From a virus: a stretch of DNA of 45,337 bases. Below, one piece after another: positions 1 to 43,701 of this stretch. The position numbers were made by a program, and so were the translations under genes. The notes under the pieces are model-generated. The model had not been told where the DNA came from. It made no database searches and saw only the letters and a program-made list of their open reading frames with translations. Within the stretch, counting starts at the first letter, position 1; every line of letters starts with the position of its first letter. The stretch spans positions 1 to 45,337 of the IMG/VR virus record IMGVR_UViG_3300042368_000839; one strand, 5' to 3'.

Positions 1-2
1 TT

Positions 3-1277
3 GGGCTGATCAGCACGCCAACCCTGAAAGGGTTTAGCCGAATCGAGAAGTGGTTTGAGCTGTCGGATCAGCGGCGGTATTTCGTGCCCTGCCCGCACTG
101 TGACCACTACCAGGTGCTGCGGTGGACTCAGATGAAGTGGGAGAAGGATGCCGACGGCAACGGGCTACCGGAAACGGCGGCCTACGAATGCGAGAACTGC
201 CAGCAGCTGATCCCGCACAGCAAGAAGCGATGGATGGTGGAGCGGGGTGAGTGGCGGGCCACAGCGGAAAGCAAGCGTCCTGGGCTGGCGGGATTCCATA
301 TCTGGGCGGCCTACAGCTACAGCCCGAACGCCAGCTGGGCCCAGCTGGTTCAGGAGTTCTTGGAGGTGAAGAGCGACCGCACGCAGCTGCAGACCTTTGT
401 CAACACGCTGCTGGGCGAGACGTTCGAGGATGACTACGCCGCTGCTCTGAGCGCCACAGGGCTGGCTGCACGCCGCGAGGAATACCCACCGGGGCACTGC
501 CCTGCTGGCGTGTTGCTGCTGACTGCTGGCGTGGACGTGCAGGACAACCGTTTAGCGGTGAGCGTGTGGGGCTGGGGCGCCGGTGAAGAGGCGTGGCTGG
601 TGTGGCACCAAGAGATCATGGGCGACCCTACGCAGTCCAAGGTATGGGATCAGCTTGATGCCGTGCTGGACACTGCCTGGCCTGTGGAGGGTGGCGGAGA
701 GCTCAGGCTGGCGCAAGTGGCGATCGACTCAGGCGGCCACGCAACCCATGAGGTGTACCAGTACGCCAGGGAGCGCCGAGATCGATACGTGGTGGCGATC
801 AAGGGCAGCAGCCGCCGCAGTCAGCAGCCCGTCAACAAGGGGACGCCGCAGGATGTGAACTGGAAGGGCAAGACAATTAAGCGCGGCGTGGTGCTGTATC
901 AAGTGGGCACCGACACGGTGAAGACCACGCTGTTTGGCCGGCTGCGGCACAACAAGCCAGGGCCTGGCTATGTGCACTTCGGCCTATCGGGTGATGACGA
1001 ATGGTGCAGCCAAGTGACCAGCGAAAAGCAGCAGCTGCGCTACGTGAAGGGATTCCCGGTGCGCGAATGGGTCAAGAGCCCGAGCGCACGGAATGAGGCG
1101 CTGGATTGCATGGTGTACGCCTATGCGGCGCTGCAGCTGGCGTCGAGGCGCTATGCGAAGGCGAGCATGTGGGAGAAGCTGGCCGCGCAGCTGCAGGCAT
1201 CAAGGGATCTGGCGGCGTCAGTAGCCTTAGACCAGCAGCCCGCGCCGCGCCGGGCCCGATCCTTCAAGGTGATCTAA
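3..1277 (+). CDS. terL: Phage terminase large subunit, GpA-like (5' partial)
   Basis: Motor and nuclease of the packaging machine, which cuts concatemeric phage DNA and pumps it into the prohead. The frame is open to the left edge, and the residues before the first in-frame GTG (position 84), such as STPTLKGFSRIEKWFE, match the GpA family, so the ATPase part lies outside the window. Visible are two Cys pairs of a zinc-binding insert (CPHC near 90-101, CENC near 189-200), the nuclease start with its acidic residue (TAGVDVQDNRL, near 520-550) and the conserved end motif NEALDCMVYAYAA. The stop overlaps the reverse-strand gene at 1274 by four bases. The next structural gene, the neck protein, is displaced 1.8 kb to the right by an accessory insertion. 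Confidence 0.95.
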   Translation, partial: GLISTPTLKGFSRIEKWFELSDQRRYFVPCPHCDHYQVLRWTQMKWEKDADGNGLPETAAYECENCQQLIPHSKKRWMVERGEWRATAESKRPGLAGFHIWAAYSYSPNASWAQLVQEFLEVKSDRTQLQTFVNTLLGETFEDDYAAALSATGLAARREEYPPGHCPAGVLLLTAGVDVQDNRLAVSVWGWGAGEEAWLVWHQEIMGDPTQSKVWDQLDAVLDTAWPVEGGGELRLAQVAIDSGGHATHEVYQYARERRDRYVVAIKGSSRRSQQPVNKGTPQDVNWKGKTIKRGVVLYQVGTDTVKTTLFGRLRHNKPGPGYVHFGLSGDDEWCSQVTSEKQQLRYVKGFPVREWVKSPSARNEALDCMVYAYAALQLASRRYAKASMWEKLAAQLQASRDLAASVALDQQPAPRRARSFKVI

Positions 1278-1441
1278 GGCGCGTCAGCAGGCCTTGCGAG
1301 GTCAGGTATCGCCCGCAGGCCCGCCTCGATGAAGAACGCCCCCATGGCGGAGACGGTGCGACCCTCCGCCTTGGCGCGGGCCCTAAGGGCCTCGACGGTG
1401 GGCACCGGCAGAACGACCTGGACCCTGATTCCTTGCGCCAT
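1274..1441 (-). CDS. Small ribbon-helix-helix-like protein (CopG-type), antisense to the late genes
   Basis: A 55-residue protein starting MAQGIRVQVVLPVPTVEAL. A short beta strand (RVQVVLPVP) is followed by two predicted helices (TVEALRARAKAEG and TVSAMGAFFIEAGL), the layout of ribbon-helix-helix DNA-binding proteins, which usually act as dimeric repressors or antitoxins. A longer reading frame begins at 1522, but its extra 27 residues are Cys/Trp-rich and do not look like protein, so I chose the ATG at 1441. It is the only reverse-strand gene among the rightward late genes in the left 33 kb and ends tail to tail with terminase. A TATACC hexamer at 1453-1458 (reverse strand) could be its -10 box. 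No toxin partner is visible. The fold is inferred from pattern only. Confidence 0.6.
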   Translation of the reverse strand: MAQGIRVQVVLPVPTVEALRARAKAEGRTVSAMGAFFIEAGLRAIPDLARPADAP

Positions 1442-1524
1442 GCTCTGATCGTGGTATAGTTTGATCCAACAGCAGCCTAGCGGCCGCTGACACCTCGCCC
1501 GGTCCAGAACCGGCTTTACCATGC

Positions 1525-2022
1525 TTGAACACTCCTAGCGGCTACTACCTGTCTCGCCAGTGGCGGCAGCGCAGGCAGCAACGCCTTGAGATCGACGGCC
1601 ACCAGTGCCAAGGGTGCGGCATCACTGCTGCGCAGTTGGCTGAGCTGGGCTGGCCTGTGCTTCAGGTTCATCACAAGAACGCTGGCCCACCGAACTACAC
1701 GTACCCGTCATTCGGCAACGAGCAAATGTCAGACCTGCTGACGCTGTGCTCCGAGTGCCATGACGGCATCACCAATTCAGTTCGGCGCCAACGATTCAAG
1801 CTGGACCCCAAAAAGCAAGTCGATCCGGTTCACATTGCCCCGCCTTCACTTTCTGTTCCAACAACTTCACGGAGACAAAATGTCCAGCCTTCCTTCTGTT
1901 CAGATTCGACTGCAAGGCGTGAGCCCACTGTTGTGCCACAACGGTCAGACCGCCGATCCGCGAAATACTTACGCGAAGGCGATGAAAGCAGTCAGCAGCA
2001 AGCGCAAGAAGACCGACGCTGA
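1525..2022 (+). CDS. HNH endonuclease, C-terminus doubtful
   Basis: HNH nuclease of the kind common beside phage terminase genes, where it may assist packaging or act as a homing enzyme. The pattern is clear: C28-x2-C31, the HH pair at 49-50, N65, then C75-x2-C78-H79 (LLTLCSECHD). The start is TTG at 1525; the nearby ATG at 1521 runs into a stop after five codons. From about residue 90 the frame continues into the start of the next gene (ATG 1880), with a tail rich in Arg, Gln and Ser that does not resemble an HNH protein. Either the reading frame was disturbed near 1790 or the overlap is a chance read-through. The domain itself is complete. Confidence 0.75.
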   Translation: MNTPSGYYLSRQWRQRRQQRLEIDGHQCQGCGITAAQLAELGWPVLQVHHKNAGPPNYTYPSFGNEQMSDLLTLCSECHDGITNSVRRQRFKLDPKKQVDPVHIAPPSLSVPTTSRRQNVQPSFCSDSTARREPTVVPQRSDRRSAKYLREGDESSQQQAQEDRR

Positions 2023-2512
2023 TTACGACGAGCTGGCCCGGCTTGAATGGCTTGCTGGCCTATATCGCATCGACGGCGACTTGGTGATCCCTGATTACGT
2101 GATTGAAAGCACGATGATCGGCGGCGCCAAAAAGTCAAAGCGCGGCCCTCAAGCGAAGTGCGGCCTGTTCTTCACTGAGCACGCTTCACTGCAGTTTGAC
2201 GGCAAACCTGAGATCATCACCGATGAAACGCTTTCGGAAATGTTTGCCAGTGGCGACTTCACCCACACGATTGGCGTCAAGGTAGGCATGGCCAAGGTGA
2301 TGCGCACCCGCCCCGTGTTCCGCAACTGGAACATCACTGCCTTGGCTCAGTACGACCCCGACGTGCTCAACATGCGGGACGTTGAAGAGATCGCCATCGA
2401 CGCCGGCAAGCTGGTGGGGATTGGCGATTGGCGGCCTAAGCATGGCCGGTTTGATGCTGAGGTGATACCTGTCGCCGAGCAACTAGATCGACTGCTGGCG
2501 GAGGTGGCCTGA
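1880..2512 (+). CDS. Unrecognised protein with RAMP/Cas7-like pattern, upstream of the repeat RNA array
   Basis: A 210-residue protein of no named family. The frame opens at 1760, but ATG 1880 is preceded by GGAGAC (1871-1876) and begins a well-formed protein, so I start there. Residues 7-20 form a hydrophobic beta strand ending SPLLCHNG. A charged helical stretch (31-58) follows, then GDLVIPDYVIES (66-77) and a basic glycine loop GGAKKSKRG (81-89). RTRPVFRNW lies at 142-150, and a glycine-rich GIGDWRPKHGRF at 180-191 precedes a final strand. A first strand, an 'IP...S...GAK' segment and a late glycine loop before the last strand recall RAMP-superfamily RNA-binding proteins (Cas7, Cas5, Cas6). 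That resemblance is pattern-based inference, not a detected homology. I recall similar unnamed proteins in other phages. Its stop lies about 30 bases before the pentamer array, suggesting cotranscription. Confidence 0.7.
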   Translation: MSSLPSVQIRLQGVSPLLCHNGQTADPRNTYAKAMKAVSSKRKKTDADYDELARLEWLAGLYRIDGDLVIPDYVIESTMIGGAKKSKRGPQAKCGLFFTEHASLQFDGKPEIITDETLSEMFASGDFTHTIGVKVGMAKVMRTRPVFRNWNITALAQYDPDVLNMRDVEEIAIDAGKLVGIGDWRPKHGRFDAEVIPVAEQLDRLLAEVA

Positions 2513-2628
2513 TGCGCTGGCATCCGGTGACGGTGTAAGTCCCAGCAAGGCCTGGCGGGGTTCGGTCAGGCGGAGCCCGGCATGGTCAGGTCAGGCAGGG
2601 CGAGGCATGGCGCGGCAAGGGCTGCGAT

Positions 2629-2675
2629 GGCAGCACGGAGGGCCTACGGGCCTTCCCTGCCGCCTTCATTGGCGG
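2629..2675 (+). other. Array hairpin cassette A
   Basis: GGCAGCA (2629-2635) can pair with TGCCGCC (2658-2664) at six of seven positions, enclosing a conserved CGGAG...TCCC core. The same TGCCGCC can instead pair with GGCGG at 2671-2675 across the loop TTCATT, giving two mutually exclusive stems. Confidence 0.7.
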
Positions 2676-2755
2676 ATGAGGCGCGGCGAGGCCTGGCTAG
2701 GTCAGGCGGGGCGATGTCAAGCTCGGCAGGGCTGGGCATGGTGTGGGCCACAGAC

Positions 2756-2801
2756 GGTGGCACGGAGGCTCCGGCCTCCCTGCCACCCTCACAAGGGGTG
2801 G
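2756..2801 (+). other. Array hairpin cassette B
   Basis: Starts exactly 127 bases after cassette A. GGTGGCA (2756-2762) pairs perfectly with TGCCACC (2781-2787). The inner stem GGAGGC (2764-2769) pairs with GCCTCC (2774-2779) around TCCG. TGCCACC can alternatively pair with GGTGG at 2797-2801. The stem sequence differs from cassette A on both strands, keeping pairing. Confidence 0.75.
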
Positions 2802-2882
2802 GCAAGGCCAGGCGCAGCGGGGTACGTTGTGGCGGGGCGAGCCCATGCGAGGCATGGCCGGGCCTGGCAAGGGCTGCAGACA

Positions 2883-2932
2883 GCAGCACGGAGCTTCTGC
2901 GGAGGCTCCCTGCTGCTCTCTTTTGAGGGCAG
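2883..2932 (+). other. Array hairpin cassette C
   Basis: Starts 127 bases after cassette B. GCAGCA (2883-2888) pairs perfectly with TGCTGC (2911-2916). Inside it, GGAGC pairs with GCTCC. The right strand can instead pair across TTTT with GAGGGCAG (2925-2932), as CTGCTCTC with one G-T pair. The changes relative to A and B are again compensatory. Confidence 0.75.
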
Positions 2933-3008
2933 ACGCGGCACCCTGGGGCGCGGCTGGGCGATGCTAGGCCAGGCATGGCGTGGCAGGGACTGGCGTGGCA
3001 AGGCGAGG

Positions 3009-3023
3009 GCCGCTTCCGGCGGC
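3009..3023 (+). other. Array hairpin D, reduced terminal unit
   Basis: GCCGC (3009-3013) and GCGGC (3019-3023) form a five-pair stem around TTCCG. It sits at the place where a fourth cassette would start (one period after cassette C) but lacks the CGGAG core, and is followed by four more pentamers that merge into the terminator. Confidence 0.6.
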
Positions 3024-3030
3024 AAGGCAA

Positions 3031-3050
3031 GGCGGGGCAACCCGCCTTTT
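3031..3050 (+). terminator. Intrinsic terminator closing the repeat array
   Basis: Perfect six-pair stem GGCGGG (3031-3036) and CCCGCC (3041-3046) with loop GCAA, followed at once by TTTT and a pyrimidine-rich run. Its left arm is itself made of array pentamers (GGCGG, GGCAA). It separates the accessory insertion from the head gene cluster that starts at 3104. It is the only convincing intrinsic terminator I found in the window. Confidence 0.75.
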
Positions 3051-3103
3051 CCTGTTCTCCCTAGTCTTGAGTCAGGATCTAGACAGGCTGCCGACACTGA
3101 TCA

Positions 3104-3667
3104 ATGACCCAGCCGCTGCAGATCTACCAAGGCGATCAGGTCACCTGGCTTGAGCCTGCGCCTGATGACGCTACGGCCGTGGTCGCATGGCTCCGCGCCG
3201 CTGCAGCCGGCGCCGGCGTCGAGGCCCCGGCGACGCTGACGGATGACGGCTGGCGCGTCACGCTGACCACGGCCACCACCGCTGCGATGGCATCGGGCGA
3301 CTGGACTGTGCAGGTGGTGGCCACGGTTGACGGCGTGCCGCACACTCTGCGCCGCGGCAGCCTGACCGTCCGCAAGACTTTGGCCTTCAGCGGAACGTCT
3401 GGCGCGTTCGACGATCGCAGTCAGGCCGAGAAAGATTTGGCTGCTGCCGAGGAAGCCATTCGGGCCTTGGTCGGTGGTGCGGTTGAGTATCAGATCGGCA
3501 GCCTCGGCTCCGGCGGCAGGAAAGTTCGCCGGGTGGACCTGCCCGATCTAATCATGTGGCGCGACCGCCTCAAGGCCGAGGTCGCCCGTGAGAAACGCGC
3601 CGAGATGATCGCGCAAGGCCTCGGCGATCCGCGCCGGCTCTATGTGCGGTTTCAGGGGGTGAGCTGA
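3104..3667 (+). CDS. Head-tail connector / neck protein, gpW position
   Basis: A 187-residue protein lying between terminase and portal, where lambda-like phages carry the small head-completion protein W. The N-terminal two thirds (residues 1-95) is Thr/Ala/Val-rich and beta-like. The C-terminal part is helical and charged (RSQAEKDLAAAEEAIRAL, then DLIMWRDRLKAEVAREKRA), with the central QIGSLGSGGRKVRRVDL segment that resembles short gpW-type connector proteins. The extra N-terminal domain makes it longer than gpW. The stop overlaps the portal ATG by one base (TGATG), so translation is probably coupled. The function rests mainly on position and the C-terminal pattern. Confidence 0.6.
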   Translation: MTQPLQIYQGDQVTWLEPAPDDATAVVAWLRAAAAGAGVEAPATLTDDGWRVTLTTATTAAMASGDWTVQVVATVDGVPHTLRRGSLTVRKTLAFSGTSGAFDDRSQAEKDLAAAEEAIRALVGGAVEYQIGSLGSGGRKVRRVDLPDLIMWRDRLKAEVAREKRAEMIAQGLGDPRRLYVRFQGVS

Positions 3668-5199
3668 TGGGTGTTCGATCCTGGCTGCAGCGGCAGATCC
3701 TGACCACCCGGCACGGCCGGCAGCAGGGCCAGCGGATGTTTGAGGGCGCCCGGCGTAACCGGCTGCTCCACGACTTGGTGGCGCCAACCACCTCCGCCGA
3801 TGCCGAGCTGCGCGTCAGCCTGGCGGTGCTGCGCGACCGCTGCCATCAGCTGGTCAGGGACAACCCCTATGCCCGCCAGGCCAAGCGGACCACGCAGATC
3901 AACGTGGTCGGCCCTCGCGGGATCCAGATGCAGGGGCAGGTGATGCGCCCTAACGGCACGGAAAAGGACGTGCGCCGGAATCGGCTGCTGGAGGAAGCAT
4001 GGCGCCGCTGGTGCCGACCGGATACCTGCGACGTGGCGGGCCGGCTGTCGTTCCACGGCTTTGAGATGATGATCGCAGGCAGCCTGCCGGAGTCGGGCGA
4101 GTGCCTGATCAGGATCGTGCGGCAGCCGATGGGGCAGGGCCGCACCCCGCTGGCGCTGGAGCTGATCGAGGCGCACCAGCTCGATGAGGACAAGAGCGGG
4201 GTATCAGATCGCGCTGGCCACGAATGGCGGCTGGGCGTCGAGATCAACGAATGGGGCCGCCCCACCCGGTACGCCATCCTGACCCGCCACCCTGGTGATG
4301 TGGAGCTCGGCCTGAACCGCCGTGGCGTAGAGCGGAAGCACGTCCTAGTGCCGGCGGCGGACATGATCCATGTGTTCCTGCCGGAGCGGATCGGGCAGAA
4401 CCGGGGCGTGCCGTGGCTGGCGTCGGTGATCACAACTGTCCATGGGCTTTCTGAATACGAAAAGGCTCACCTGGTACGGAAGCGCGTCCAAGCGGCAGCT
4501 CTGGGATGGATCCGCACCCCAGACGGTGAGTTGCAGGGTGATGAGGTCCAGAACGGCCAGCAGCTGTTCAACACTGAGCCCGGCAGCTGGAACATCCTCG
4601 ACCCCGGCCAGGAACCGGTACCGCCGAACTTCGGACCTGACGACGGCCAGTACAGTCATGTAGTAAAGAACCTTACGAGGCGGTTTGCGGCTGGGTTTGG
4701 GTGTAGTTACGCGACCATTAGCAAGGATTTCAGCGACACGAACTACAGCAGCATGCGCACCAGCGTGCTGGAGGATCGCGACCACTGGCGGGTAGTGCAG
4801 AGCGCAATCATTGAGGTGTTCCACCAGCGCGTATTTGAAGAGTGGCTACGCGCTGCAATGCTGGCGGGTGAGTTGCCGTCGCCAGCTTTTAATGACTATT
4901 GGACCAGGCCAGAAAGGTATAACGCTCCACGCTGGCAGGCTAGATCATGGGACTGGGTGGACCCAGTTAAGGATGTTTCCGCCATGGAAAAAGCCAAGGC
5001 GATGCTATTGAAATCTCACAGCGAGCTGATAACTGAATACAGCGGCGAGCAGTTTGAGCAGGTGATGGCGCAAATCGCCATGGAAAACGAGCTGAAAGAA
5101 TCACTGGGCCTGATGCCCACCGTGGAGCAACCGCCTGAGCCCGTGGTGCAACCGCCTGAGCCGGAAGAGGACGACGACGCCCCAGAAGATGTAGAATAG
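3667..5199 (+). CDS. Phage portal protein, lambda GpB family
   Basis: Forms the dodecameric ring at one capsid vertex through which DNA enters and leaves. The 510-residue length fits the lambda-type portal family. Recognisable segments are RDNPYARQAKRTTQINVVGPRGIQ near the N-terminus, ELIEAHQLDED in the middle, HVFLPERIGQNRGVPWLASVI and, in the stem and crown part, YATISKDFSDTNYSSMRTS followed by FHQRVFEEWL. The C-terminus ends in a Pro/Glu/Asp-rich tail (PPEPVVQPPEPEEDDD) typical of a flexible end. The protease, often a separate gene next door, is instead fused to the capsid protein downstream, and an HNH gene separates the two. Confidence 0.95.
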   Translation: MGVRSWLQRQILTTRHGRQQGQRMFEGARRNRLLHDLVAPTTSADAELRVSLAVLRDRCHQLVRDNPYARQAKRTTQINVVGPRGIQMQGQVMRPNGTEKDVRRNRLLEEAWRRWCRPDTCDVAGRLSFHGFEMMIAGSLPESGECLIRIVRQPMGQGRTPLALELIEAHQLDEDKSGVSDRAGHEWRLGVEINEWGRPTRYAILTRHPGDVELGLNRRGVERKHVLVPAADMIHVFLPERIGQNRGVPWLASVITTVHGLSEYEKAHLVRKRVQAAALGWIRTPDGELQGDEVQNGQQLFNTEPGSWNILDPGQEPVPPNFGPDDGQYSHVVKNLTRRFAAGFGCSYATISKDFSDTNYSSMRTSVLEDRDHWRVVQSAIIEVFHQRVFEEWLRAAMLAGELPSPAFNDYWTRPERYNAPRWQARSWDWVDPVKDVSAMEKAKAMLLKSHSELITEYSGEQFEQVMAQIAMENELKESLGLMPTVEQPPEPVVQPPEPEEDDDAPEDVE

Positions 5200-5257: not shown

Positions 5258-6043
5258 ATGGCATCAGTATCGCAGAGCAGCCGTCAGAAGCGTCGACCGT
5301 GGACAGCGCAAGACCAAGTAACCGCCGAAGTCATGGCGGCGTGTGGCATAAAATGCAAGGCGATTGCTCGGTATATGGGCCGATCAGACGGCACCATTTC
5401 AGCGCACCTAATCCAAGGTGAAACAGAAAAAATCTTTGAGCGCAACAAGCGATACTATTACGACAATTTACATGAAGAGCGCCAACGAAGGCGCCGCTAC
5501 TATCAATCGAACATCAAGATTGAACGCGAACGCGCTCGGCTCCGTTACAGAGCCAATCCTGAAATAGAGCGAGAAAGAACCCGTCGATGGCAAAGAGAAA
5601 ATCCAGAAAAAGCATTTGAGCTTCGGCGCCGCGTGTATCAGAACAATCCTGGAGCTGCTCGGGAAAAGTGCCGTCGGCGTCGCGAATGGAGGAGGTCATC
5701 CCGCCGCGCCGCCCTCCACCCCGTCACCCGCGCTCAAATCGACGCTCGCTTCGCCATCTGGGACAACCGCTGCGCATTCTGTGGAGTGGATGCCAGCCAC
5801 GAACGAAACCACGGCCGCGAACGCCTCACGGTTGAACACGTGTTGGCCCTGACCAAGGGCGGGCTTGACGAGGCGAGCAACATCATTCCCGCCTGCACCG
5901 CTTGCAACTCCAGCAAGCACAACTCACCGGTTGAGGATTGGTACCGGCAGCAACCGTGGTTCACAGAGGCTCGCTGGCGCAAGATCCAGCGCCATTGCCC
6001 CGCCGCCGTGGTGGGCCAACTACCTCTGGCGCTGGCGGCGTAG
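5258..6043 (+). CDS. HNH homing-type endonuclease with N-terminal helix-turn-helix and charged repeats
   Basis: A 261-residue protein with three parts. Residues 14-50 look like a helix-turn-helix (VTAEVMAACGIKCKAIARYMGRSDGTIS). Residues about 58-150 are highly charged repeats with Tyr/Arg spacing (RRRRYYQSN, ERERARLRYRANPEIERERTRRWQRENPE), probably a DNA-binding helical spacer. The C-terminal HNH nuclease carries CAFCG, LTVEHVLALTKGG and ACTACNSSK. The start ATG follows a GAAAGGA ribosome site at 5245-5251. It interrupts the usual portal-to-capsid gene order, as mobile HNH genes do. No intron boundary is visible, so I read it as a free-standing homing endonuclease. Confidence 0.9.
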   Translation: MASVSQSSRQKRRPWTAQDQVTAEVMAACGIKCKAIARYMGRSDGTISAHLIQGETEKIFERNKRYYYDNLHEERQRRRRYYQSNIKIERERARLRYRANPEIERERTRRWQRENPEKAFELRRRVYQNNPGAAREKCRRRREWRRSSRRAALHPVTRAQIDARFAIWDNRCAFCGVDASHERNHGRERLTVEHVLALTKGGLDEASNIIPACTACNSSKHNSPVEDWYRQQPWFTEARWRKIQRHCPAAVVGQLPLALAA

Positions 6044-33886: not shown

Positions 33887-34945
33887 TCACCAACTCCCCC
33901 CAGCAGCAGCGATCCGCAGCCGATCGCCGAGGCAGACCCAGTTCCGAGGAAATCCCCCAACCCTGCGCAGCGCCGGGGACGTGGGCTTCACCCTTTCAAT
34001 CGGCACCAGCACCAGCTGATCAGGCCGCTCGCGGCGCCGCCTGCTCCGATCCTTCGGCTCCACCGTCCCCCGTTCCACCGCCACCAGAACCAGCTGCACC
34101 GACTGCGACGCCAGTGCCGCCTGCAGCCGCTCCAGTCGCACCTCCAAAGCCCGTGTGCTCAGGCCTTCCTGCTGGGCCAGCTCAGGCCGCGGCACCTCCA
34201 CCCCGTCGAGGCCCCAGGCCAGGGACAACAACCTGCGATCCTGCGGCGCCAACCTGGCGATCAGGCCACGCAGCTGCTCCGCCTGGCGCCAGCGTTCGCG
34301 CTGCTCCTCTTCATCCTCTGGCGTGCGGTCGTAGGTGGCGCACAGGCTGCCCAGCTCTAGCCCGTCATCCGTCACCACCTGGTCAAGGCTGGCGACCGAT
34401 CGGCCGTTCTCAACCACCTGCTCCAGCACCTTCACGCTGACGCCCAGCTCTGCGGCGATCTCCGCCTGCGTTGGCGTGCGGTTTAGCTCCAGCTCCAGCC
34501 GGCTGGTGATGGCCTGCAGCTTCGCTAGATGCTGGCAGTGGCTGCCGGGGATGGCGATCGCCCTGCTGTACTGGTCAATGTGCCGGTTCACCCCCTGCCG
34601 GATCCACCACCAGGCATACGTGCTGAATCTGTAGCCCTTAGCGGGATCGAACCGCTCTGCTGCCGTCAGCAAGGCCATGTTCCCGGCCTGGATCAGATCC
34701 TCGCGATCCTGCCCGGCGAACAGGCGGCTGCGGCGGGAGATGTACGCCACCACCAGCCGCAGATTCGCTGAGACGAAGCGATCCCGCGCCCGCATGCCCC
34801 GGCGCCGGATGCCTGGCGGGCACTCGCCGGGATGGGTCTGCCATTGCTGGATGGCCGTGCCGAGTTCGATTTCCTCGGCTGGCGTGAGCAGGGGTATGCG
34901 CCCGATCGAGTCGAGCCACCAGGACTGGTTGGAGCTGGCTGGCAC
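33887..34945 (-). CDS. Sigma-70 family factor, cyanobacterial group 2 type
   Basis: A 352-residue RNA polymerase sigma factor starting GTG at 34945 (MPASSNQSWWLDSIGRIPLL). Region 1.2: IGRIPLLTPAEEIELGTAIQ. Region 2: FVSANLRLVVAYISRRS, GQDREDLIQAGNMALLTAAERFD, YRFSTYAWWWIRQGVNRHI with the -10-binding aromatic residues. Region 3: LELELNRTPTQAEIAAELGVS. Region 4: LLSLAWGLDGVEVPRPELAQQEGLSTRALEVRLERL, more divergent than region 2. A C-terminal tail of about 65 residues (VAVERGTVEPKDRSRRRRERPDQ...) is not found in ordinary sigma factors. It could direct host polymerase to phage promoters, or alter host transcription. It is alone on its strand between two rightward gene groups. Confidence 0.93.
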   Translation of the reverse strand: MPASSNQSWWLDSIGRIPLLTPAEEIELGTAIQQWQTHPGECPPGIRRRGMRARDRFVSANLRLVVAYISRRSRLFAGQDREDLIQAGNMALLTAAERFDPAKGYRFSTYAWWWIRQGVNRHIDQYSRAIAIPGSHCQHLAKLQAITSRLELELNRTPTQAEIAAELGVSVKVLEQVVENGRSVASLDQVVTDDGLELGSLCATYDRTPEDEEEQRERWRQAEQLRGLIARLAPQDRRLLSLAWGLDGVEVPRPELAQQEGLSTRALEVRLERLQAALASQSVQLVLVAVERGTVEPKDRSRRRRERPDQLVLVPIERVKPTSPALRRVGGFPRNWVCLGDRLRIAAAGGSW

Positions 34946-40699: not shown

Positions 40700-43072
40700 T
40701 CAGTAGTGAAACCAATCCACCACCGACTCCAGGCGACTGGCCCAGCTGTGCCGGCGGATGATCTCGACAACCTCTTCGGCGCTCATCACGTCCGGCGAAT
40801 TCAGCGCCTTGCGGACGTTCTTCGTAAAGCCGCCCTGACTGCGCGTCACTTTCAGCTGCGGCAGATCCTCCGGCAGGTTGGGGATGTCGGTGCTGATGAT
40901 CGGGATCCCCAGCGTGGCGTACACCCAGCATTTCAGCGGGTTCATCGCCGCCGTGAGATTCGTTTTCAGGTGCGGGATGATCGCCACGTCAAACGTCGCC
41001 AGGTAGGTGCGCAGCTCGTCATAGGGCACTGGGCCCACGTAGCGAATGTTCCGCCGCTGTGGCAGCTGGGTGGCCACGTGCGTGCTGCCGATCAGCAGCA
41101 CTAGGTCGTCAGGGTTTTTGGCTGCTACGTGCTCCACCAATGGCCAGTCCAGTTTCGACTCCAGGTTTCCGGCATAGCCGATGATCCCCCGGAAATTGCC
41201 GGGCGCTACCAACTGCTCCCGCAGGTCAGCCACCTCTGCCGCGTCCGGTGCGCCGGTGAAATCCACGCCATTGGCCACTACCTGCGCCTTCGTGGGGCTG
41301 AGTCTGCCGATGCTCTGCAGCGTGTGCCGGCAGTTGTAAAGGCCCATGTCGGCCAGATCAAGGATGGCGCGGTAGTGCTCCGTGAGCTCTGTTTTCCGCT
41401 CGGCGGATGTGTTGGGCCATGCCCTGTGATCGTCTACCACGTCGCCTATCACGTAGTCCGTGGGCAGGGCTGCGGCGATCCGCTCGGCGTGCCGATAGTA
41501 CGGATAGACCCAGAGCCCCACCTTGGCGCCGGGGAAGCGCGCTAGGGCCTGCTCCACCAGCCCTTGGCAGTACCGCTCGATGAAGTCGCCCTGTTCAGCC
41601 ACGCTGAGCCCTGCAGGCATCACTGGCGTGCGGATGGCAAGCTTGCCTCTGTCCAGCAGCCCGACCCTTTTCCGCTGCGCGTAACGGTGCAACAGCCGGT
41701 GATGCCGGTTCTGGCTTTGCTCCAGCTTGCGCAGGTCCAGCGTGCTAAGCGGTTTCTCCACCAACAGCACCTGGTCCACGTCATTCCGGCTGGCCAGGTA
41801 CTTTGCCACCATGTCCACCCGCCTGCCAAACACCCCAGCGTCGTTCTGTTTCCAGAGCATCAAGATGATCCGCCGACCAGGCTCAGGTAGCCCGATCAAT
41901 GATCTGGCGGCGTAACTGATCGCTCGGCGGCTGGGCTGGGACAGGAGGTGGCGCATGGTGGTAGCTCCAGAGGCATAGGACAGGTGCTGGTGCGCGAGGC
42001 GCTGATTCACCTCCCGATCGGCAGCGCTCAGTGGCTGCAGCTGGCGGATCGCGTCGGGCAGTTCGGCGGGCGACTCCACAAACGAAATCCCCCGAAACCC
42101 CCAGTCCGCCAGCATCTGCAGCGGCGGGGTAGGTGTGGCGATCAGCCTGATGCCGGCCGCCAGCGCGTCGCACGCTTTGGCCGGCAGCTGATACCGGCTG
42201 GCCTCGCGGGACTGATCCTGCAGCAGCACCGCCGCATCAGCTAGCGCGAGGCAGGCGGGCATAGCCGCGAATGCCACGCTGTCGATCATTGCGGCCTGAT
42301 CGCCGGCTGCGCGGGTGATGTCGTTCACAATCCCTTGGTCGGGAATGCGGCCGATGAATGCCGCGCCAGCACCTGGCACCTGGGCCACGGCCTGAGCGAT
42401 GACGTCGAGGCCCTTGTGCCGCTGCGGCGTGCCTAGGAACATCACCAGCGGGGTGCAGCGGCGGCGGATCTCCAGCAGCTCAGTGGGCGGCTCAGCCTGC
42501 GGCGATTGAAACGCATCCAGGTCGCGCAGGTGGGCGATGATCTCCCCGCCGTGCAGTGCCTGCAGCTCGGTGTTGCAGGTGATGATGTGATCAGCGGCCT
42601 TGGTGAGCTGCTGTGCCGCCAGCGTCCAAAACGGCGAGTAGGGGGCCTCGCCAAGCCGTTCGGGGAACTGCTGCTGCAGCGCCAGCGGCGAGAGCGGGGC
42701 ATCGTTCGGATCAATGAACGCCAACTCGTGATCATCGATGTCAACGATCAGCCGGGCGCCGTTGCGCTCAGCGATGGCAATGCCCAGCAGCACTGACGGC
42801 AGCCGGGCTTTGCAGGCGATCACCACGTCTGCATCGGTGGCCGCGGCGACGCGGCGGCAGCGATGAATCAGCGCCGCGACGGTTTTGGGCTCAGGGATCA
42901 CAGTGATCGGCTCACCTCGCAACGGCGCCCACACCTCACGGCCTAGGTGGGAGAACCCGAAGGCGATCAGCTGGACCTCAGAGAATGCCAGCGCGGCGGC
43001 ACGGGCGATCAGATGGGCCCGGCCGATGCAGTTGTGGTGGGCGTCCCACCCAATGACGATGCAGCGAGTCAT
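40700..43072 (-). CDS. Tandem glycosyltransferase, two GT-B (GT4-like) units in one chain
   Basis: A 790-residue protein. The frame opens at 43186, but ATG 43072 gives a clean Rossmann start MTRCIVIGWDAHHNCIGRAH, so I use it. First unit (1-360): LIVDIDDHELAFIDP, HIITCNTELQALHG, MFLGTPQRHKGLDVIAQAVAQV and LADAAVLLQDQ... with the usual donor-binding region. Second unit (about 390-790): IILMLWKQNDAGVFGRRVDMVAKYLASR, DYVIGDVVDDHRAW, VVANGVDF, GYAGNLESKLDWPLVEHVA and FDVAIIPHLK...AMNPLKCWVYATLGIPII. Two successive transferases suggest a disaccharide or two-step modification. Possible targets are host surface polysaccharide, virion proteins or modified DNA bases. The methyltransferase lies in the same leftward block. 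Target is unknown. Confidence 0.85.
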   Translation of the reverse strand: MTRCIVIGWDAHHNCIGRAHLIARAAALAFSEVQLIAFGFSHLGREVWAPLRGEPITVIPEPKTVAALIHRCRRVAAATDADVVIACKARLPSVLLGIAIAERNGARLIVDIDDHELAFIDPNDAPLSPLALQQQFPERLGEAPYSPFWTLAAQQLTKAADHIITCNTELQALHGGEIIAHLRDLDAFQSPQAEPPTELLEIRRRCTPLVMFLGTPQRHKGLDVIAQAVAQVPGAGAAFIGRIPDQGIVNDITRAAGDQAAMIDSVAFAAMPACLALADAAVLLQDQSREASRYQLPAKACDALAAGIRLIATPTPPLQMLADWGFRGISFVESPAELPDAIRQLQPLSAADREVNQRLAHQHLSYASGATTMRHLLSQPSRRAISYAARSLIGLPEPGRRIILMLWKQNDAGVFGRRVDMVAKYLASRNDVDQVLLVEKPLSTLDLRKLEQSQNRHHRLLHRYAQRKRVGLLDRGKLAIRTPVMPAGLSVAEQGDFIERYCQGLVEQALARFPGAKVGLWVYPYYRHAERIAAALPTDYVIGDVVDDHRAWPNTSAERKTELTEHYRAILDLADMGLYNCRHTLQSIGRLSPTKAQVVANGVDFTGAPDAAEVADLREQLVAPGNFRGIIGYAGNLESKLDWPLVEHVAAKNPDDLVLLIGSTHVATQLPQRRNIRYVGPVPYDELRTYLATFDVAIIPHLKTNLTAAMNPLKCWVYATLGIPIISTDIPNLPEDLPQLKVTRSQGGFTKNVRKALNSPDVMSAEEVVEIIRRHSWASRLESVVDWFHY

Positions 43073-43701
43073 GGCGTTGGGGTGGGTAGTGGCAGGGCGT
43101 GGGGGGGGAGCAGCCAGCCGCCGTAGACCATTGCTGGGTTGGCCATCTGCCAGTAGGGCGGGCCGTCTGGTGGGCACCACCAGCATTCGCCATCAAGATC
43201 ACGCCACCCTTTCTCGCGCTCCCAAGGCCGCTCAGCCACGGGCACCGGCTCGGTGGTGGGGCGGGCGAAGTGGGTGAGGATGGCGCCACATAGATCGGCA
43301 ACATCTTCGGCGCAGACATTGCCGATCAGTCGCGCAGTAGGTTCCCAGCCGAAAGCGCACTCTCGAACCGCCGTTGCAATGGATGCGATTCGCTCCGTCA
43401 CCCCCTCCGGCTCGGGTTCGCCAACACCGAAATAGGGGCAGGCTGGATCACCGAATCGACCGCAATCGTCCACGTTTGCCGGGGCGATACCGCACATAGG
43501 ACACTCCCGAACTTGAACGGGCTTTCCGTCGCCAAGGTTCCGCCAATGAAACAGCCCATCCCCCTCCGGCTCGGGCTGGGCCAGGGCGGCGCGGGCGCGG
43601 TTTACAGCGGCCTGAAACCTTAGGCCATCATTGGTGTCGATTACATCGTTTTCAACTGCCCCTAGCAATCGTTGCAGTTCGGCGCGGTAATCAGTGCTCA
43701 T
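43069..43701 (-). CDS. Hypothetical phage protein with Cys-rich middle
   Basis: A 210-residue protein. Helical start (YRAELQRLLGAVEN...), Cys-rich middle (CPMCGIAP, CGRFGDPACPYF), and a conserved-looking end (VPVAERPWEREKGWRDLDGECWWCPPDGPPYWQMANP) that I know from small phage proteins of unknown role. It overlaps the glycosyltransferase start by four bases. Confidence 0.7.
   Translation of the reverse strand: MSTDYRAELQRLLGAVENDVIDTNDGLRFQAAVNRARAALAQPEPEGDGLFHWRNLGDGKPVQVRECPMCGIAPANVDDCGRFGDPACPYFGVGEPEPEGVTERIASIATAVRECAFGWEPTARLIGNVCAEDVADLCGAILTHFARPTTEPVPVAERPWEREKGWRDLDGECWWCPPDGPPYWQMANPAMVYGGWLLPPHALPLPTPTP

Follow-up and report, generated by a model that had tools for sequence, protein, structure and literature searches.

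In a cyanophage-like siphovirus represented by a 45,337-nt viral record, the five-base array at 2544–3050 very probably encodes four guide RNAs (vrRNAs) belonging to a VIPR system. The window analysed here is that whole record (IMG/VR IMGVR_UViG_3300042368_000839), and L-numbers denote the other viral stretches and loci with which it was compared. This identification is made because the neighboring gene product is homologous to Vipr and has a predicted RAMP fold, arrays and vipr genes are linked across viruses, the tails covary, targets appear when a one-base skip is allowed, those targets keep codon register, and guides turn over between close phages. VIPR (Viral Interference Programmable Repeat) was described in 2026 from Escherichia phage SUSP1, where it is of type II (PMC13142463; bioRxiv 2026.04.26.720920 version 2), and the kind of system is thus already known; what is new is that a cyanophage-like clade has it, with HNH and RHH as partners, together with prey genes predicted among rival phages and the turnover of whole guides.

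Vipr is an early-branching RAMP that binds vrRNAs of about 100 nt, made up of 9–16 GGY/NN repeats and a 3′ tail, and the NN letters of the vrRNA pair with double-stranded DNA, leaving out one base from one NN to the next (PMC13142463). The VIPR complex represses transcription independently of a PAM, and the guides found in nature are directed against satellites, prophages and other VIPRs (PMC13142463). The clades studied in the preprint were SUSP1 and P. fulva (PMC13142463), and it alone came up for VIPR or vrRNA in the literature collection searched.

The window virus is a siphovirus of lambda-like type; its portal has its closest counterparts in the Synechococcus phages S-CBS3, S-CBS1 and S-LBS1 (43–46 per cent), and we infer a cyanobacterial host. 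The gene order is terL (cut by the window start), RHH (opposite strand), HNH, the phrog_4652 gene, the array, head–tail joining, portal, a second HNH and capsid. A sigma-70 factor is present in the window and annotated in all three of those phages, and the window also holds a large protein with glycosyltransferase domains. The features are as follows.

1274–1522, − strand: small RHH_5 (ribbon-helix-helix) gene, candidate accessory, left edge of the cassette (Pfam PF07878, E 3.8e-10)
1525–2022, + strand: HNH endonuclease gene, candidate accessory (vap), TTG start (PHROG HNH families, best E 2.3e-10)
1880–2512, + strand: vipr, 210 aa, phrog_4652, predicted RAMP-fold protein
2544–2618, + strand: vrRNA 1 (vr1) repeat tract, 15 units; no target found
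2619–2664 (3′ end approximate), + strand: vrRNA 1 tail, two hairpins, fold z −3.2 on 2619–2674, covariation
2675–2744, + strand: vrRNA 2 (vr2) repeat tract, 14 units, first unit GATGA weak; apparent target in the rivals' head–tail-joining gene
2745–2787 (3′ end approximate), + strand: vrRNA 2 tail, fold z −4.5 on 2745–2795, covariation
2796–2870, + strand: vrRNA 3 (vr3) repeat tract, 15 units, first unit GGGTG weak; no target found
2871–2915 (3′ end approximate), + strand: vrRNA 3 tail, fold z −3.5 on 2871–2931, covariation
2932–3006, + strand: vrRNA 4 (vr4) repeat tract, 15 units; apparent target in the rivals' head–tail-joining gene
3007–3050, + strand: vrRNA 4 tail of different shape, terminator-like hairpin with TTTT at its end, fold z −2.3 on 3007–3052
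3104–3667, + strand: head–tail-joining gene (phrog_5774, E 2.7e-26), bounding the cassette on the right; vr2 and vr4 match this gene in rivals, and the allele here is the phage's own
33887–34945, − strand: sigma-70 factor
40700–43186, − strand: glycosyltransferase-domain protein

An exact five-base register had been noted in the preliminary description, and it is real: lag-5 identity in 2544–3050 is 0.418, and the dinucleotide shuffles that the description had proposed as a control have a mean of 0.306 (sd 0.019) and a maximum of 0.373 (n = 2000), so that none attains the score of the array. When 100-base windows (step 10) are taken across the whole window, every one of the 23 highest-scoring begins within 2511–2971, and in-register runs occur on the + strand only. 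In the framing used here, the four blocks within 2544–3006 contain 15, 14, 15 and 15 units (each one fewer without a weak first unit), a correction of the 15–16 counted earlier, and the stretches of 51–61 bases between them form hairpins and are not further repeats. GGY begins 45 of the 59 units, 14 deviating, and positions 4 and 5 can each hold any of the four letters, as in vrRNA pentamers; the first reading overlooked these variable bases as carriers of information. The array was not reported by Tandem Repeats Finder because bases 4–5 vary. It is single copy in its own record, no similarity to the DNA of 2400–3400 was found in the phage collection, and none of 4227 Rfam models matched the window at gathering score. 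A CRISPR array, in which long identical repeats would alternate with spacers, was also considered and rejected, since none is reported at 2513–3103 and the unit is five bases with variable NN.

It is hardly credible that the array codes for protein or is a G+C-rich repeat of low complexity under no selection. The G+C content is indeed high and a 166-aa ORF (2607–3107) crosses the array, but the ORF has no Pfam or PHROG family match, for which reason the coding reading was dropped, and the shuffle result, the linkage to vipr and the target matches given below all argue against either form of this explanation. The earlier statement that no gene fits here holds for the array itself and fails for its surroundings, since vipr, the gene that would explain it, lies on the same strand with its end 31 bases before the array.

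The product of that gene is, from its sequence and structural model, a Vipr protein with a predicted CRISPR-RAMP fold. It matches the chain deposited as 'SUSP1 Vipr protein' (PDB 36pp) at E 3.8e-27 with phmmer, and a profile comparison for Vipr homology gave E 4.3e-42. The AlphaFold model, built on an alignment of 70 sequences, has a mean pLDDT of 96.7, and the 50 best Foldseek matches to it are all CRISPR effector complex chains or subunits (best E 7.8e-6; Csm3 5yjd_A, E 1.7e-5). With VIA-align, where the top matches are likewise CRISPR RAMP subunits, the model superposes on chain E of 8do6, the S. epidermidis Cas10–Csm complex, over 161 residues (Z 10.8, rmsd 3.9 Å), and a G-rich motif near the C-terminus has G176, G180, R185, G189 and F191 invariant or nearly so among the 70 sequences. 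No model in Pfam, NCBIfam or PADLOC consistently recognizes these 70 proteins, the matches being to single members only (Csm3, E 0.024, one member). Homologs occur in 130 phage records and are mostly called 'hypothetical' among the 60 matches listed, and a search of bacterial genomes confined to close relatives gave two loci (44–47 per cent). The suggestion in the preliminary description of an RNA-binding protein with a five-base footprint therefore fits well: a RAMP-fold Vipr is encoded next door, and its SUSP1 homolog co-purifies with RNAs of about 100 nt built of GGY/NN pentamers (PMC13142463).

The association of arrays with vipr extends well beyond this record. A scan of viral contigs for (GGCNN)6GGC, along the lines of the search suggested earlier for GGCNN arrays in phage sequences, returned at least 120 stretches, and a profile grown from the window phrog_4652 protein found a Vipr homolog in 82 of the 120 listed, the other 38 having none in the part fetched. 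The homolog lies within about 750 bases of the array, often much closer, and the array is on its strand in 80 of the 82 loci (the two with opposite strands being L120 and L183). A bare GGCNN pattern search thus recovers vipr genes, and arrays should be usable for finding further systems. Among 80 relatives gathered via the head–tail protein, nine carry both array and vipr and 71 carry neither; the nine represent two array versions, five having a head–tail protein identical to that of the window and four resembling L007.

Two existing annotations touch on such tracts. In Escherichia phage wV8 (L202) the annotated direct repeats 'DR_4' (2268–2325 and 3661–3718) flank a Vipr homolog and sit in intergenic stretches with GGY/NN tracts, and these deposited repeats are therefore probably parts of vrRNAs. 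In Mycobacterium phage LittleE (L205) the annotated hypothetical gene 35 (2069–2458, reverse strand) lies over a GGCNN tract at 2176–2375, on the strand opposite to it, and is probably a spurious gene call.

A conserved structured 3′ tail, one of the features of VIPR, is present in the clade of the window. Seven tails were aligned (window 1–3, L094 1–2, L127 1 and L007 A), three of other shape being excluded (window 4, L094 3 and L127 2). Across the seven, the two-hairpin fold has 98.7 per cent paired cells, both partners have changed in five of its pairs, and its covariation score was reached by none of 500 shuffles, in a set that is small, has related members and supplied the sequences from which the structures were drawn. 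One of five covariation measures, 'further pair types', was not above shuffles (350/500). An alternative long hairpin, which uses the same middle strand and excludes the first stem, is also supported by changes on both sides of pairs, and the two mutually exclusive folds might act as a switch or reflect an intermediate in processing. By eye, the window tails show no simple pseudoknot of the kind depicted for the SUSP1 clade.

Elsewhere, tails resembling a tRNA minihelix (acceptor stem, 9–11 base linker, and T-arm with a TTCGANY loop) were seen directly 3′ of GGCNN tracts at these positions.

L085: 3784–3825, minihelix-like tail
L102: 4438–4477 (reverse strand), minihelix-like tail
L187: 1493–1532, 1626–1668 and 1771–1810, minihelix-like tails
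L203 (Gordonia phage MakoManhole): 2984–3024, minihelix-like tail
L205 (LittleE): 2392–2431, 3712–3753 and 3856–3896, minihelix-like tails

Ten such elements are found no more than 60 bases 3′ of a tract, where 0.06 would be expected from the nine found elsewhere in the loci compared; one more, in L084, may be chance. Neither ARAGORN nor Rfam names a tRNA at these tails, and the word tRNA is absent from the main text of the VIPR preprint (PMC13142463). Such tails might direct processing by RNase P or Z.

These observations on strand and tails also bear on the proposal, made in the preliminary description, of a helical DNA feature at half a turn. A DNA-level element such as a packaging or partition site, bound by protein every half turn, would suit the position of the array next to terL and a lag-10 identity (0.437) as strong as that at lag 5. 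It is nonetheless highly improbable: the array follows the coding strand of vipr in nearly all loci, the inter-block hairpins covary as RNA, 71 of the 80 relatives with the same surrounding genes do without the array, and the target matches are specific.

The vrRNAs and vipr form part of a larger cassette. In 13 listed relatives without it the gap between terL and the head–tail gene is at most 20 bases, where the window has an insert of about 1.8 kb (1278–3103). Both the RHH gene and the HNH gene, the latter overlapping the start of vipr by 143 bases, are present in all nine VIPR-bearing relatives as well as in L094 and L127, and neither is found in the 71 relatives without VIPR (tblastn for RHH). 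The HNH residues C-x2-C, HH and C-x2-CH are kept in the window, L007, L094 and L127, and searches found no relative of this HNH in bacterial genomes or, by tblastn, in phage records. L094 and L127 carry HNH, RHH, vipr and guides at the same site, with portals only 45–46 per cent identical to that of the window; the Vipr of L094, a different phage, is 70 per cent identical. The second HNH endonuclease gene of the window (5258–6043, between portal and capsid) has a tblastn match in 33 of the 80 relatives and is thus not tied to the VIPR cassette. A mosaic border is also apparent, in that the window terL (3–1277) is only 42 per cent identical to that of L007 (2925–4202), in contrast to HNH (95 per cent), Vipr (97 per cent) and the head–tail protein (93 per cent).

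Whole guides turn over between close phages. The preliminary description had named frequent one- and two-base indels in related phages as evidence that would count against its reading; in the one sister version compared (L007, L008) the shared vr3 and vr4 persist with a few substitutions, and vr1 and vr2 are together replaced by one other guide.

For the search for targets, guides were read as N1N2-x-N3N4-x, the published one-base skip, with shuffled unit order as the null. The second guide matches 23 of 28 letters at codons 4–17 of the head–tail gene in cassette-less relatives (shuffles at most 21; 0 of 300 reach it), and vr4 matches 24 of 30 letters at codons 124–138 of the same gene (shuffles at most 22; 0 of 300). 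Skips of 0, 2 and 3 give only 18–20 letters, so that two of the four window guides have a one-base-skip DNA target, at skip 1 only. These scores are attained in 20 (vr2) and 22 (vr4) of the 71 cassette-less relatives, which are redundant copies of one lineage. At the L206 site the window vr4 matches 25 of 30 letters and the L007 version 28 of 30, the latter reaching at least 26 in 29 of the 71. Guide 1 of L094 provides a further case: its match is in the terminase gene, with 23 of 26 letters agreeing in S-CBS1 and 22 of 26 in S-CBS3 (0 of 500 shuffles), against a best of 16 in its own genome. The first matched letter falls on codon position 1 at the S-CBS1, L206 and vr2 sites, and therefore the skipped base is the wobble base. 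The window phage's own head–tail allele matches both guides at chance level (vr2 17 of 28 at 3113; vr4 20 of 30 at 3470), and the best scores of target-bearing guides in the phages' own loci are 16–20. It appears from these matches that vr2 and vr4 are aimed at the particle-assembly (head–tail-joining) gene of rival phages.

Neither vr1 nor vr3 had a match above chance in any of the sequences searched, and no window guide had a perfect target there. Exact scans of viral contigs with vr3 (11 units), vr4 (13 units) and vr2 (9 units) each returned 0 stretches; scans with 8 units returned nine stretches for vr1 (best 22 of 30) and 14 for vr3 (best 23 of 30), neither exceeding the 23 attained with 25 shuffles. 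Neither guide was found in 31 whole relative records with up to three mismatches, and all four guides scored at chance level (18–20 letters) against S-CBS3, S-CBS1 and S-LBS1. The best match of vr1, 20 of 30 at the terL/head–tail junction, is weak, being equalled by 30 of 500 shuffles, and is not claimed as a target. No target was found in the sequences searched for L007 guide A, L007 vr3, L094 guide 2 or L127 guide 1, and L094 guide 3, with six units, is too short for target scoring. When runs of fewer than 10 or more than 24 units were excluded, 282 guides of other loci compared with all loci, and 286 compared with their own, gave skip-1 scores not above skips 0 and 2 or shuffles. The null with 282 guides is expected if their prey is absent from the loci compared, yet it gives no support either.

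The system may also be a decaying relic, with guides that once functioned but have drifted and no longer act. The units that depart from GGY, the two guides without target and the poorer fit of the window vr4 than of the L007 version at L206 all lend themselves to this reading, which we consider unlikely in that vipr retains an intact reading frame, 97 per cent identical in L007, vr3 and vr4 stay in register in both array versions, and vr2 and vr4 are still far above shuffles.

HNH homing endonucleases occur beside phage terminase genes, and the location of the targets, in both genes that flank the empty site, suggests RNA-guided homing. The guides would bring Vipr, and by way of Vipr the nuclease of the overlapping HNH gene, to terL and the head–tail gene beside the empty insertion site of cassette-less cousins; repair would copy the cassette in, and it would move together with target-free flanking alleles. 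Three independent targets all fall in these two genes, the two in the head–tail gene being joined by a site in the final tenth of the S-CBS1 terL that L094 guide 1 matches, the HNH gene overlaps vipr and occurs only with it (9/9 as against 0/71), and L094 and L127 share the insertion site despite their divergent portals. If true, this would be a self-spreading cassette, RNA-guided homing with a discontinuous guide. It seems improbable all the same: the search space for vr2 and vr4 was centred on the head–tail gene and is biased in position, leaving the S-CBS1/S-CBS3 hit alone as drawn from whole genomes; no preference for genes near their own locus is seen among the 286 guides from other VIPR loci; HNH activity and the link of HNH to Vipr are putative; and terL/head–tail mosaicism is general among these phages.

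Counting against the VIPR reading as a whole are the targetless vr1 and vr3, the imperfect targets, the 14 of 59 non-GGY units and the redundancy of the target lineages, and likewise the 282-guide test without skip-1 excess, the pseudoknot not seen by eye and the 38 of 120 listed stretches without Vipr. Under the favored reading of an active VIPR, and by analogy with the published SUSP1 work, the array would be transcribed and processed to RNAs of about 100 nt, Vipr subunits would assemble along the pentamers, the NN letters would pair with DNA and the GGY part would stay unpaired, and the complex, once bound, would repress the gene of the rival. The gapped reading of guides has here been checked in phages outside the two clades of the preprint (SUSP1 and P. 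fulva), and three guides have matches above shuffles at a one-base skip only, in register with wobble positions, and in rivals rather than self. The head–tail-joining and terminase genes of cousin phages are candidate prey unmentioned in the main text of the preprint (PMC13142463).

Several known systems invite comparison. Like terminase-adjacent HNH homing endonucleases, the HNH of the window is free-standing, lies next to terL and is absent from close relatives, but it differs in traveling with vipr and guide RNAs. The RAMP backbone of Class 1 CRISPR systems (Cas7/Csm3) resembles Vipr in predicted fold and apparently in a G-rich loop near the C-terminus, whereas sequence identity to Vipr is about 14 per cent and the window has no repeat–spacer array. 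CRISPR backbones disrupt every sixth guide position (PMC13142463), and the guide letters of the window are instead discontinuous with a five-base unit. The closest counterpart is the SUSP1 VIPR, which shares with the window a RAMP protein of about 200 aa with several guides downstream of vipr, GGY/NN pentamers (14–15 in the window, 9–16 as published) followed by a structured 3′ tail, and discontinuous one-base-skip matches at codon wobble positions, with competing phages as prey. The similarity of the window Vipr to the SUSP1 chain (E 3.8e-27) is that of a distant clade, and the shape of the tail differs. HNH and RHH stand upstream of vipr in the window, whereas wV8, Medea1, MakoManhole and LittleE have a gene directly after vipr, and the prey genes found for the clade of the window encode head–tail joining and terminase proteins, where those of SUSP1-type systems are satellite genes and lysogeny regulators.
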